Positions 7,727-38,238 of a stretch of 38,995 nt of DNA are shown in pieces. The notes under the pieces were generated by a model. The model searched no databases. It saw nothing but the letters and a program-made list of their open reading frames with translations, and was not told the origin of the DNA. Origin of the DNA: Verrucomicrobiota bacterium (GTDB lineage Bacteria; Verrucomicrobiota; Verrucomicrobiia; Limisphaerales; PALSA-1396); the NCBI GenBank assembly GCA_016200005.1, contig JACQFP010000041.1:1-38995 (forward strand), in the 5' to 3' direction. How positions within the stretch are numbered: position 1 is the stretch's first letter; the number at the start of each line of letters is the position of its first letter. Made by a program: the position numbers and the translations under genes.

Positions 7727-8240
7727 ACAGCGACAAGAATTCTCCTGGTGATGATCTTCTTGTGGAACGCCTGGAAACGGTCGCGCCCTTCAGGCACGGC
7801 GAAACCCTGTCTGCCATGCCATCACGGGTTCAAAATCGGCAAGGACCATTGTGTCTGGAGTATTGCGCAGCAGCGGCGGCTTGCATGGTGGTTGGTGGCA
7901 ACCTCGCCCGGCAGCCGCTGGCGAGATCAGCGCCAGCCGGAAAGCGAACTGAACCAAGCCCGTGGCGGTGGCAACCATCGGGGGCAGCACCGGAATCGCC
8001 TAGCGCGCCCAAGCCGCAACCGAAGCGGAGCGCGGAATTTATTCCGCTGCGACTCTCGCCCCGCTGTACCGCCTGGAAAGTTCGGCGCGCTCGAACCGTC
8101 GGACGTTGAAGCGGAATAAATTCCGCGCGCCACAATCTTCGCAAGATGTGACGATGTTGCGAGATACCGTTGCAAAGCGCACAACAAAGCCCCGGCTTTC
8201 TGCTAGACGCCTCCTTCCGCCGTGTTAGACTGTATTCGGT
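7727..8240. other. Gap with no supported gene
   Basis: These 514 nt separate the secretion operon from ispH. Open frames exist on both strands but their translations are Arg/Pro/Trp-rich and resemble no family. The right half holds a composite palindrome (8030-8128). The promoter of ispH should lie between about 8130 and 8240, but I see no convincing -35/-10 pair. Confidence 0.6.
8030..8128. repeat. Composite palindrome (two hairpins forming a long inverted repeat)
   Basis: A perfect 19-bp inverted repeat is formed by GCGCGGAATTTATTCCGCT (8030-8048) and AGCGGAATAAATTCCGCGC (8110-8128). Each arm is itself a palindrome: GCGGAAT-TT-ATTCCGC at 8032-8047. The 61-nt spacer is GC-rich. A relative of one arm (17/18 identical) is at 24199-24216. 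The layout resembles a REP/BIME-type dispersed element. Confidence 0.8.
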
Positions 8241-20707: not shown

Positions 20708-20772
20708 CCCCCTCACCCGTCCTAACGGACACCCTCTCCCCATCGGATGGGGAGAGGGACGGGGTGAGGGGC
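20708..20772. repeat. Dispersed palindromic element (intergenic copy)
   Basis: A nested inverted repeat. The inner stem CCCTCTCCCCAT (20732-20743) pairs perfectly with ATGGGGAGAGGG (20747-20758) around a 3-nt loop, and the outer arms CCCCTCACCCGTCC and GGACGGGGTGAGGGG pair with one bulge. The right 43 nt (20730-20772) are 40/43 identical to 29584-29626 inside nadE. It lies between the ATPase and the first permease gene, so it could also act as an mRNA hairpin that lowers or stabilises part of the transcript. Confidence 0.85.
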
Positions 20773-28710: not shown

Positions 28711-30393
28711 TCATTCCCGATATTGTTGTGCGACGGGCACGCGACGACCGACGCCAAACGCTTTCGTCGTCACCTTGAGGCCGGGCGCGGCCTGGCGGCG
28801 TTTATATTCGCTCAAGTCAATCAGGCGAACTACGCGCTTCACAGTCGTCTCGTCGAAACCAGCGGCGATGATTTCCCGTGGCGACTTGGCGTGGACGACG
28901 TAGGCTTCGAGAATGGCGTCGAGCACATCGTAGGGCGGCAGCGAATCCTGATCGGTCTGGTTGGGGCGTAGTTCAGCAGATGGCGCTTTGGTGATGGATG
29001 CGGTTGGGATGATTTCCCTCTCGCGGTTGATCCATTTCGCGAGGCGATAGACCATCATCTTCGGCACATCGCTGATGACGGCGAGGCCGCCATTCATGTC
29101 GCCGTAAAGTGTGCAATAGCCGACGGCGAGCTCGCTCTTGTTGCCGGTGGTCAGCAGCAGCGAGCCAAGTTTATTGGAGAGTGCCATGAGCAATGTGCCG
29201 CGAATGCGAGCCTGCAAATTCTCTTCCGCCACGTCTTCGGCGCGACCGGCAAACACACCTTTCAACTGCGCCTTGCATTGCTCGAAAACCGGCTGGATGG
29301 CGATGATATCGTAACGGATGCCGAGATTGCGCGAGAGAATTGCCGCGTCATCAAGGCTGCCCTGCGAGGAATATTGAGAAGGCAGCGAAATGCCGCGAAC
29401 ATTCTCCTTGCCCAACGCAGCAACAGCGAGGCACGCAACGAGCGCCGAATCGATGCCGCCGCTCAATCCGAGCACCGCCGACTTGAAACCGCATTTGTGC
29501 AGGTAATCGCGCAAGCCCAGCACCAGCGCGCGATAAACCAGTTCCTCGTCGGACGGCAACGAACCCCTCTCCCGGCCTTTGGCCACCCTCTCCCCATCTG
29601 ATGGCGAGAGGGATGGGGTGAGGGGCACGGCAGCCACATCCACAAAAAGCAAATCTTCCTCAAACAACTTTCCCTGCGCGACAAGTTCACCCGCGGCATT
29701 GAAAGCAAGGCTGCCGCCGTCGAAAATCAATTCGTCATTGCCACCAACTTGATTGCAGAACACGACCGGACGCTTAGTTTTCACCGCGATGCTGCGGAGC
29801 ATTTCAAAGCGGGTCTGATTTTTTCCGAGATGCCACGGCGACGCGGACAGATTGAAAATGATTTGCGCGCCAGCCTCAGCCAGCTCGACTGGCGGGTTGT
29901 TGCGATAGCGGCGCTCCGGCCAGAAATCGTCGTCGTTCCAGATGTCCTCGCAAATCGTCAGGCCGATTTTCAGTCCATTGAACTCGACCGGCGCGTTCTC
30001 GTTCGCGGGCTGGAAGTAGCGGTCTTCGTCGAACACATCGTAAGTGGGCAGCAAAGTTTTCGCGCGGGTTGCCACGATCTTGCGGTTCTGCAACAGCGCC
30101 ACGCTGTTCGTCACTTCGCGACCGGGTCGCTTCGCGTTCTCGCCGACGAAACCAAGCAGCAAGCCCGTCTTGCCCGTGGCAGCCGCGAGTTGATTGAGCG
30201 ACTCAAGATTTTTGGCGACGAAATCCTTTCGCAGCAGCAGATCACGCGGAGGGTAGCCGGTGACGGCCAGTTCGGTGCTTACGACCAAGTCGACGCCAGC
30301 CTCGACACCGCGACGATACGCCGCGAGAATTTTCTCTGCGTTGCCGGAGAGGTCGCCGACGGTGGTGTTGAGTTGTGCCAGCGCAATCTTCAT
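28711..30393 (-). CDS. nadE: Glutamine-dependent NAD+ synthetase with a repeat-encoded linker
   Basis: A two-domain 560-residue enzyme that amidates deamido-NAD with glutamine as nitrogen donor. The N-terminal nitrilase-type glutaminase has the triad E41 (STELAVTGYPP), K112 (RAKTLLPTY) and C148 (TICEDIW). The C-terminal ATP-pyrophosphatase domain has LGLSGGIDSALVA (S311-S316) and, later, TTGNKSELAVGYCTLYGDMNGG. Between the domains, residues ~257-280 (PLTPSLSPSDGERV and then AKGRERGSLP) are encoded by a palindromic repeat (29563-29626) also found between genes at 20708-20772. The insert falls in the inter-domain linker, where extra residues can be tolerated. Confidence 0.96.
   Translation of the reverse strand: MKIALAQLNTTVGDLSGNAEKILAAYRRGVEAGVDLVVSTELAVTGYPPRDLLLRKDFVAKNLESLNQLAAATGKTGLLLGFVGENAKRPGREVTNSVALLQNRKIVATRAKTLLPTYDVFDEDRYFQPANENAPVEFNGLKIGLTICEDIWNDDDFWPERRYRNNPPVELAEAGAQIIFNLSASPWHLGKNQTRFEMLRSIAVKTKRPVVFCNQVGGNDELIFDGGSLAFNAAGELVAQGKLFEEDLLFVDVAAVPLTPSLSPSDGERVAKGRERGSLPSDEELVYRALVLGLRDYLHKCGFKSAVLGLSGGIDSALVACLAVAALGKENVRGISLPSQYSSQGSLDDAAILSRNLGIRYDIIAIQPVFEQCKAQLKGVFAGRAEDVAEENLQARIRGTLLMALSNKLGSLLLTTGNKSELAVGYCTLYGDMNGGLAVISDVPKMMVYRLAKWINREREIIPTASITKAPSAELRPNQTDQDSLPPYDVLDAILEAYVVHAKSPREIIAAGFDETTVKRVVRLIDLSEYKRRQAAPGLKVTTKAFGVGRRVPVAQQYRE
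29563..29626. repeat. Dispersed palindromic element (copy inside nadE)
   Basis: An in-frame copy of the repeat seen at 20708-20772. The 43 nt at 29584-29626 match 20730-20772 at 40 positions and in the same orientation. The inner stem CCCTCTCCCCAT pairs with ATGGCGAGAGGG with one mismatch. It encodes the linker peptide described under nadE. Confidence 0.88.
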
Positions 30394-36407: not shown

Positions 36408-37289
36408 TCACAAAACGATTTCTGTCCCGTTGCCTTCGTCGGTGAAGATTTCCAGTAACACCGAGTGCTGCAAACGACCGTCCACAAAGGAAACTTTTTC
36501 CACGCCGGCTCTGATGGCGGCGACGGCGCTATCCACTTTGGGAATCATACCCTCGTCAATAACACCGGCTTGCTTGAGTTGATCCACTTCGGAAACTTTC
36601 AGATGAGGGAGGACGGAGTCCGGCTGTTTAGGATTGCGCAGCAAGCCCGGCACGTCGCTCATGAACACAAGCCGCTTGGCCTTGAGAGCGATGGCGGCTT
36701 GCGCAGCGGCCACATCGGCGTTGCAGTTGTAAATCTTGCCGTCCTCGCCCAGCGCGGTCGGACTGATGACCGGTGTGATGCTGCGCCGGATGCACTCGCG
36801 CAACGGCTCGAGGTTCACCGCCGTGACTTCGCCGACGAAGCCGATGTCAATCTTCGCGCCGGGCTTGTCCTTGTCGTCGAGCCAGAGTTTACGGCATTTG
36901 AAAATGTCCGCGCCGCAAAAGCCGCGCGCCTTGCCGCCGAGCGATTCGATGGTCTTGACGATCTCCGGATTGATCTCGCGCGAAAGCACGCGGTCCACCA
37001 CGTCCACCGTCGCCTCGTCAGTCGTGCGCTGACCTTGAATGAAACTCGGCTTGAACCCCGCGGCCTCCATCGCCCGCGTGATGGCCTTGCCGCCACCGTG
37101 CACGACCACCGGGTTGATGCCCACGGCTTCGAGGAACACGACATCGCGTGCGACGCCGTTGCGGACGTTGGCGTCCGGAGAGTCCATGAATGAGCCGCCG
37201 TATTTGACGACGAACGTCTGGCTGCGGAAACGCTGGATGTAAGGCAGCGCTTCAAGCAGCGTCGCGGCTTTGGCAATGAGGTCTTGCAT
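36408..37289 (-). CDS. argB: Acetylglutamate kinase
   Basis: A 293-residue kinase that phosphorylates N-acetylglutamate, the second step of arginine synthesis. [10 protein letters not shown] (residues 27-36) is the phosphate-binding start, VVHGGGKAITRAMEAAG the glycine-rich loop, and IYNCNADVAAAQAAIALKAKRLVFMSDVPGLL the nucleotide and acidic site. ATG 37289 is the canonical start; a longer frame extends upstream into the HEPN gene. The first 48 codons have a near-identical duplicate upstream at 38087-38233. The HEPN gene stops 10 nt before this ATG, so argB now probably depends on transcription through, or promoters within, the HEPN-MNT pair. Confidence 0.96.
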   Translation of the reverse strand: MQDLIAKAATLLEALPYIQRFRSQTFVVKYGGSFMDSPDANVRNGVARDVVFLEAVGINPVVVHGGGKAITRAMEAAGFKPSFIQGQRTTDEATVDVVDRVLSREINPEIVKTIESLGGKARGFCGADIFKCRKLWLDDKDKPGAKIDIGFVGEVTAVNLEPLRECIRRSITPVISPTALGEDGKIYNCNADVAAAQAAIALKAKRLVFMSDVPGLLRNPKQPDSVLPHLKVSEVDQLKQAGVIDEGMIPKVDSAVAAIRAGVEKVSFVDGRLQHSVLLEIFTDEGNGTEIVL

Positions 37290-37299
37290 GAAGGAAAAT

Positions 37300-38047: not shown

Positions 38048-38233
38048 TCAAAGAAACTCCACGTTTGCAATGCTGGCAAGCTGATTCCCTCGCGCCACGC
38101 CGTTGCGGACGTTGGTGTCTGGCGAATCCATGAAGCTGCCGCCGTATTTGACGACGAACGTCTGGCTGCGGAAACGCTGGATGTAAGGCAACGCTTCAAG
38201 CAACGTCGCGGCTTTGGCGATGAGGTCTTGCAT
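38048..38233 (-). pseudogene. Truncated duplicate of the argB 5' end
   Basis: Codons 1-48 from ATG 38233 copy those of intact argB from ATG 37289; I count 13 differences in 144 nt (about 91% identity). Eleven codons differ and ten differences are synonymous: I5, L11, L15, S33 (TCA against AGC), D36, S37, P38, V46, A47, R48; only residue 40 changes, Ala to Thr. After codon 48 the similarity stops and the frame ends 13 codons later. The fragment lacks everything needed for kinase activity. Its ATG lies 5 nt after the TPR gene stop, a spacing that could be the original argB position. Confidence 0.9.
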
Positions 38234-38238
38234 GTCGG

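Follow-up and report, generated by a model that had tools for sequence, protein, structure and literature searches.

Palindromic repeats that lie both in intergenic DNA and, in frame, within the genes of conserved enzymes were described as Rickettsia palindromic elements (RPE; Ogata 2000, 2002; Claverie and Ogata 2003; PMC2229807, PMC3733652), which are 105-146 nt in size (PMC2229807). Among the REPs with GTAG/CGTC tags, intragenic copies have been reported in many bacteria including Opitutus terrae, and the host genes include uvrA and the genes of an RNA helicase, DNA ligase and tRNA synthetase (PMC3733652). Since in-frame palindromes are known from RPE and REPs, the phenomenon itself is not new. 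In the same study no transposase was found to be tied to the CGTC repeats, a super-family that includes the intragenic Rickettsia elements (PMC3733652). Homing nuclease genes, e.g. that of I-Bth0305I, drive their own spread (PMC3943268), and Caulobacter cells without the ScmA methylase show an SOS response that depends on the DUF559 protein VsrA (PMC12907096).

The DNA analyzed here (the window) is a stretch of 38,995 nt, corresponding to contig C41 in a draft genome of 6.54 Mb and 87 contigs. A GC-rich palindrome is found in frame within its nadE gene, between the regions encoding the CN_hydrolase and NAD_synthase domains, and there is little doubt that it is a mobile palindrome inserted in frame. 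The segment belongs to a repeat family with in-frame copies elsewhere, its peptide is missing in 109 relatives, and five sites of the family are empty in a sister genome and in outgroups. We propose as the likely explanation that the nadE segment is a copy of a dispersed mobile 61-nt palindrome that is tolerated in frame, with a DUF559 nuclease as its most likely mobilizer.

The palindrome within nadE and its three-armed structure

The features of the nadE locus are listed in Table 1. The Pfam domains of NadE extend over residues 2-254 (CN_hydrolase) and 287-535 (NAD_synthase), and the position of the insert between glutaminase and synthetase domains, as claimed by an earlier sequence-only reading, was thus confirmed. 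Residues E41, K112 and C148, which we take to be the nitrilase-type catalytic triad, and the SGGIDS motif are retained in the insert-bearing protein. The same reading had reported 40/43 identity to an intergenic hairpin; this held exactly (29584-29626 vs 20730-20772), the full element being longer (about 61-63 nt), and no comparable match to this pair was found in 100 shuffled versions of the window. Its estimate of a linker of about 24 residues failed on size: the stretch between the anchors is 37 residues in the window NadE vs a mode of 21 in relatives, a net gain of 16 residues. In a structure model of NadE the insert (residues 261-277) has pLDDT values below 50 and is flanked by confident blocks, which is consistent with a flexible linker; four other stretches of the model are also below 50, and the low score of the insert may reflect missing alignment depth.

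Table 1. Coordinates of nadE, the palindromic element and its parts in the window
Feature	Position	Strand	Remarks
nadE	28711..30393	-	glutamine-dependent NAD+ synthetase, 560 aa, insert-bearing
Palindromic element in nadE	29563..29626		residues 257-277, peptide PLTPSLSPSDGERVAKGRERG, read on minus strand
Outer stem, left arm CCCCTCTCCC	29564..29573		pairs with 29615-29625, one mismatch
Side hairpin GGCC-TTT-GGCC	29574..29584		stem with two co-varying pairs across copies
Inner hairpin CCCTCTCCCC-ATCTGAT-GGCGAGAGGG	29586..29612		nadE copy
Outer stem, right arm GGGGTGAGGGG	29615..29625		fits GGGGWSAS motif of TIRYT ends (PMC3733652)
Intergenic copy	20708..20772		between ABC transporter ATPase gene (ORF end 20675) and BPD_transp_2 permease gene

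Both the nadE copy (29564-29625/6) and the intergenic copy are three-armed, with the parts arranged in the order of CCCCTCACCC, side hairpin, CCCTCTCCCC..GGGGAGAGGG, and GGGGTGAGGGG. The third arm had been missed by the sequence-only reading, as had the DUF559 link described below. The consensus of 40 aligned copies is ACCCCTCACCC-GGCCTTCGGCC-A-CCCTCTCCCC-ATCGGAT-GGGGAGAGGG-AC-GGGGTGAGGGGC, for which RNAalifold and DNA folding agree on an outer stem of 10 pairs, a side hairpin of 4 bp, and an inner hairpin of at least 9 pairs. Compensatory double changes were observed at two pairs of the side hairpin (in 11/40 and 7/40 copies). Terminal inverted repeats, a trait of MITEs, are present, i.e. CCCCTCACCC and GGGGTGAGGGG are paired in 38-40 of the 40 copies per column pair when G-U pairs are counted. 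The folding energy of the nadE copy is -21 to -23 kcal/mol vs -28 to -29 kcal/mol for the intergenic copy, a weaker fold that would be expected if the nadE copy drifts while constrained by coding. At four loci (L009, L189, L202, L204) the element takes a longer form, about 190 nt in size, with two inner hairpins around a spacer. Of the six frames in which the element can be read four are open, and the peptide encoded by one frame pair (PLT...) is hydrophilic. A structured RNA was also considered and ruled out, no Rfam family being detected in the window at gathering thresholds.

Other repeats are also present in the window. A 144-nt direct repeat (37147-37290 and 38091-38234, 92% identical) has one copy in the 5' part of an apparent argB ORF and two small ORFs between the copies, as if an island had possibly entered with duplication. 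A different inverted repeat with 27-nt arms (89%) is located at 8027-8131.

Copies in this genome and in its relatives

The inner-hairpin pattern CCCTCTCCC N9 GGGAGAGGG was found at 152 places in the genome with up to two mismatches, and a long-side pattern at 67 places; the control for each (the reversed pattern for the former) gave 0. Copies were sampled from 4-kb stretches surrounding those 66 long-side places that lie outside the window, and from some others (0.28 Mb), so that the 73 element matches obtained, window included, do not represent the whole genome and most of the 152 places remain unclassified. Twenty-six of the 73 are in-frame cases. After 12 incomplete matches (three of the 26 among them) were left out, the 61 complete copies comprised 37 intergenic copies, 23 copies in frame with a coding score on both sides (threshold 8), and one weaker case inside an ORF (L145, scoring 4.3 on one side); no called ORF was found to be interrupted by any of the 61. 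Copies were called in frame from a home-made codon score and Pfam, without translation data. The finding of in-frame and intergenic copies with no called ORF cut is the Rickettsia pattern. The earlier claims that the repeat enters coding sequence and survives where it is tolerated, and that it behaves as the Rickettsia elements do, are thereby supported, the latter by analogy in behavior and not in descent, as host phylum and element size differ, and apparently the sequence as well.

The 37 intergenic copies are situated between same-strand ORFs (27), convergent ORFs (7) or divergent ORFs (2), or at a contig edge (1). In the 17 closest same-strand pairs the two ORFs matched different Pfam families in 12 cases and the same family in none, and in five pairs a member had no match. 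Different families on either side indicate two genes rather than one split gene; split genes posing as intergenic copies are thus argued against by these 12 pairs, and are not excluded for the five scanned pairs and 10 wider unscanned ones.

The host proteins named by Pfam are MnmA, an OppD-like ABC protein, a pyrimidine nucleoside phosphorylase, ValS, a LolD-like ABC protein, a type I phosphodiesterase, HrpB helicase, three TPR kinases, sulfite reductase subunits, TyrS, two UvrA-type proteins, UvrB, and a GMC oxidoreductase. In nine hosts (MnmA, the OppD-like, thymidine-phosphorylase-like and LolD-like proteins, the phosphodiesterase, the three kinases and sulfite reductase) the Pfam domain is continuous across the insert. 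Two frame pairs are open, and the PLT frame was chosen in 21/26 in-frame cases (binomial p 0.0025 vs 1:1); the three kinases may not be independent in this test. Near-identical insert peptides were found in unrelated proteins.

The three TPR-kinase genes (L134, L164, L177) carry the element at one common site, following 'NIAK.FDAG', with both orientations represented; these copies were possibly duplicated together or the site was repeatedly hit. In the locus L203 (G000 C34:41500-46800) palindromes, apparently of the longer double form, lie in frame in each of two nearby ORFs that match the flavoprotein and hemoprotein domains of sulfite reductase.

A set of relative NadE proteins was assembled from 114 ORFs, minus four with a span of less than 450 residues and minus the window's own copy (109 proteins, 106 distinct). 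They are at most 76% identical to the window NadE, and the nearest named records are Verrucomicrobia, Limisphaerales, and Pedosphaera-like. The inter-anchor length is 21 residues in 80/109, and the peptide PLTPSLSPSDGE was found in none of the 109 aligned relative proteins, indicating that the insert is not an old part of NadE. The presence of the same linker in all relatives, which would have refuted the sequence-only reading, was therefore not encountered, and an old NadE linker is ruled out.

In the same-genus genome G001 the NadE protein is 88% identical and its gene is split over two contigs, with the synthetase half preceded by a reversed element, beyond which lies, by reading, an apparent antisense purL; this arrangement indicates that the G001 contig is probably chimeric at the repeat. 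Whether the insertion at the nadE site is common to both genomes or the site was hit twice is undecided, both being possible. At the MnmA, OppD, ValS, PDE, and PQQ sites the element is missing in G001 and in the outgroups shown, which indicates that the element was gained at these five sites since the split. The UvrA1, GMC, and UvrB sites in G001 show other, unrelated length differences, and the DeoA site carries an eroded copy of the element; this decayed copy indicates at least one older insertion in which the palindrome has eroded and the frame is still open. Nine sites were compared between the present genome (G000) and G001 for a target-site duplication, but none could be recognized, since the flanking sequences are too diverged and differ by more than the element. 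In the ValS of G051 (L219), a genome of another family, a different insert (PTPSQEG...LPSSGGAGGG) is located where the ValS of the present genome has the element.

The NadE linker is at least 28 residues long in 7/109 relatives, and three of the linker inserts resemble palindromes unrelated to the present element, i.e. L100 (z -6.6), L129 (z -3.1, the stretch having been hand-trimmed to the stem) and, more weakly, L081 (z -2.1, with 7/200 shuffles equally good). The NadE linker is thus likely to be a repeated landing place for palindromes.

Two alternative explanations concern the insert itself. In the first, the insert would have been selected as a functional segment of NadE, e.g. a regulatory linker, instead of being tolerated mobile DNA. 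The preserved frame and the presence of the element at the same nadE site in G001 favor this explanation; the near-identical peptides in unrelated proteins, the relatives that manage without the insert, and the unrelated palindromes in the same linker elsewhere argue against it and make it very unlikely. The second is an assembly artefact in which repeats misjoined the contig inside nadE. The draft state of the genome and the seemingly chimeric G001 contig could be cited in its support, but both NadE halves lie on one contig, in one frame and with the length expected of an insert, as is the case for 25 further in-frame cases, and the artefact is all but excluded. An in-frame insertion of a mobile palindrome remains the preferred reading.

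In a covariance-model survey (E<=0.001, at most 36 candidates scored per genome) the element was detected in 84/146 genomes of the order, the present one included. A phylum-wide draw of 194 genomes (E<=1e-6) yielded five matches besides the present genome, all of them weak.

Candidate mobilizers: Y1 transposases and DUF559 nucleases

One rival explanation assigns the element to the REP/TIR type of sequences, which would be mobilized, as REPINs are, by a tyrosine (Y1, HUH) transposase of RAYT/TIRYT type, DUF559 being only a passenger. In its favor, the GGGGWSAS motif known from TIRYT ends is matched by the outer arm GGGGTGAG (PMC3733652), which is weak evidence as the motif is short; the 190-nt double form resembles a REPIN; there are four Y1_Tnp genes in the present genome, and Y1_Tnp is found in 123/146 genomes of the order; and one sampled Y1 gene (G129 C127) has an element 167 nt downstream. 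The sample consisted of only the best-scoring Y1 genes of element-rich genomes, each with about 1.2 kb on each side. Against this explanation, an element match (E<1e-6) was found in 2/40 such stretches (one of the two being the G129 C127 case) vs 1/20 random ones, and among the 34 long enough for the hairpin-flank test (6/40 were too short) none had hairpins on both sides and one had a hairpin on one side. At the four own Y1 loci (L046-L049) no CCCCTCACCC arm with up to one mismatch was found in the stretches examined, the gene of L049 having a degraded element copy about 1.4 kb away. Furthermore, G030 (96% complete) has 28 element matches with no Y1_Tnp match and no DUF559, and the element is still present in 7 of the 20 Y1-negative genomes listed. 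A RAYT/Y1 transposase was therefore rejected as the mobilizer, 40 genes compared with 20 random stretches showing no link beyond the one close case, and this rival is considered unlikely.

Two element copies 440 nt apart led to a DUF559 gene. In the present genome, contigs C21 and C42 each carry one DUF559 gene between outward hairpins, and the two are 80% identical over 502 nt. From 32 DUF559 loci one was left out as the domain motif was not found (L319), leaving 31, i.e. 29 from 29 genomes (one per genome) and the C21 and C42 loci (L200, L201). A hairpin CCCTCTCC..GGAGAGGG with up to two substitutions flanks the DUF559 gene on both sides in 27/31 loci and on one side in 4/31. Two-sided hairpins were absent from all controls (Y1 genes 0/34, random stretches 0/20, window tiles 0/119, NadE loci 0/109; total 0/282), and one-sided hairpins were seen at one Y1 gene, one random stretch, four window tiles, and no NadE locus. 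A motif-free hairpin measure agrees, with hairpins on both sides in 22/31 vs 4/35, 1/20, and 1/100. In the 27 two-hairpin loci the similarity between left and right hairpins is 0.64 within a locus vs 0.47 between loci, and hairpin similarity tracks nuclease similarity (Mantel r 0.30, 1 of 5000 permutations). The flanking hairpins are of the same type as the 61-nt element and are not identical to it.

All four full DUF559 matches in the present genome have both hairpins (by a loose pattern, one right-hand match being weak), and a partial match (L337) has none. A full-length DUF559 match co-occurs with the element in 34/37 genomes, vs 50/109 for the others (p 2.9e-7); no correction was applied to this association for relatedness among the genomes, draft quality, or the limit of 36 scored candidates. 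Among 32 element-rich genomes, nine are without any DUF559 match and 15 without a full-length one; in these the partner was possibly lost, missed in the drafts, or not required. A genome-specific match of hairpin and DUF559 subtypes was also examined for a second hairpin subtype, CTCTCCTCC, with mixed results: it occurs at 22 places in G003 including both flanks of the DUF559 gene, and in G042 and G129 there are matches next to DUF559 genes; its exact arms are absent from G131 and G009, and several are found in G099, G018, G062, and G000.

The DUF559 unit is also found in frame within type I restriction genes. DUF559 and hairpins lie within one open frame with HsdR domains at five loci (L298, L299, L300, L305, L308) and with HsdM domains at L302 in the present genome (G000 C6:256607-256924). 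The SWI2_SNF2 profile is matched in two separate parts in L298 and L299, and as the best of these stops at profile position 104, immediately ahead of DUF559, the domain appears to be split by the nuclease. The unit in hsdR and hsdM is likely to be a large version of the nadE insertion.

A structure model of the DUF559 protein has a pLDDT of 73 overall and above 80 in the blocks at residues 91-210 (the domain). Its fold matches 3hrl, a DUF559 structure (Z 15.2), I-Bth0305I (3r3p; Z 13.1, rmsd 2.8, 96 aligned) and Vsr (1cw0; Z 10.6, rmsd 2.1, 100 aligned), the typical best background Z being 7 to 8. DUF559 is thus predicted by the model to have an EDxHD/Vsr-like catalytic fold; the fold alone shows no function, and sequence-specific cutting is inferred.

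DUF559 genes on plasmids of alphaproteobacteria and one cyanobacterium (L328-L335; Azospirillum, Shinella, Sinorhizobium, Methylobacterium, Sphingomonas, Synechocystis) are also adjoined by GC-rich hairpins of similar appearance. These were scored by eye and without a control, with a hairpin on at least one side in 8/8 and alike on both sides in 2/8.

A further rival explanation requires no single enzyme: GC-rich hairpins would arise and multiply through slippage during replication, template switching, or gene conversion among copies, and DUF559 genes would be hot spots because the nuclease breaks DNA nearby. It is supported by the G001 DeoA copy that decayed in place, by the reversed G001 nadE copy, which conversion or inversion involving two palindromes would be expected to produce, and by some element-rich genomes without a candidate enzyme. 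Against it, the empty sites and a single consensus with conserved ends in scattered genes resemble insertion of a unit, as do the matched two-sided flanks of DUF559 (27/31), and we regard it as unlikely.

Proposed mechanism and comparison with known systems

In the explanation preferred here, the element would insert largely irrespective of genes. Copies that introduce a stop or a frameshift into a needed gene would be lost, and in-frame ones in flexible loops would survive, because four of the six element frames are open and the PLT frame pair is hydrophilic. The DUF559 nuclease would introduce a cut or a nick in or close to a target, and repair or replication at the hairpin ends would copy the unit, of which the short gene-less copies would be non-autonomous offspring. 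That this nuclease, with its Vsr/EDxHD homing-endonuclease fold, is the mobilizer may be as readily wrong as right, its role being inferred and untested. In a bolder reading, which we advance only tentatively and would not yet favor, the palindromes and DUF559 form one unrecognized class of mobile elements consisting of a nuclease gene and matched GC hairpin ends; the open frames through the ends would let the whole unit (hsdR, hsdM) or short solo copies (nadE, mnmA, valS and others) enter genes unspliced and remain translated. The plasmid hairpins, subject to the reservations above, are a hint that such a class is wide.

If the explanation is true, it would provide a route for selfish DNA to add peptide segments to essential enzymes, and a possible biological role for DUF559, a Pfam family of unknown function. 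The movement of protein-coding palindromes in bacteria is still an open question, for which DUF559 is a concrete and testable partner, and this lineage offers numerous in-frame insertions, sites that are empty in a sister species, and a NadE linker hit by several unrelated palindromes. No paper on a link between DUF559 and palindromes was found in the literature searched; most subscription journals were outside the search, and absence from print is not shown.

Among the known systems, the RPE are similar in having in-frame copies in conserved protein genes together with intergenic copies (here 23 and 37 of 61). They differ from the present element in that the latter is 61 nt in size, is found in a 6.5-Mb Verrucomicrobia-type genome, and is accompanied by a nuclease gene. 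The GTAG/CGTC REPs resemble it as short hairpins, single or paired, in many copies and some in frame, and O. terrae also belongs to the Verrucomicrobia; here, however, the fold is three-way and no link to a Y1 transposase was found. The GTAG/CGTC tag is at neither end of the 40-copy consensus (GACG occurs only at a variable inner position in some copies), and without a terminal tag membership in these super-families is ruled out. The REPIN/RAYT and TIR/TIRYT systems share with it the double form, the 190-nt form here resembling a REPIN, and the GGGGWSAS motif fitted by GGGGTGAG; in contrast to REP-RAYT (REPtron) and TIRtron arrangements, the sampled Y1 genes are not flanked by this element. 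The EDxHD homing endonuclease I-Bth0305I (PMC3943268) and Vsr are related in the fold of DUF559, but no intron or intein was seen around DUF559, for which homing is unproven, and the unit in hsdR and hsdM is translated through with the hairpins as its ends. What we infer to be new is a palindrome family without GTAG/CGTC tags, with a third arm, and with a likely mobilizer.
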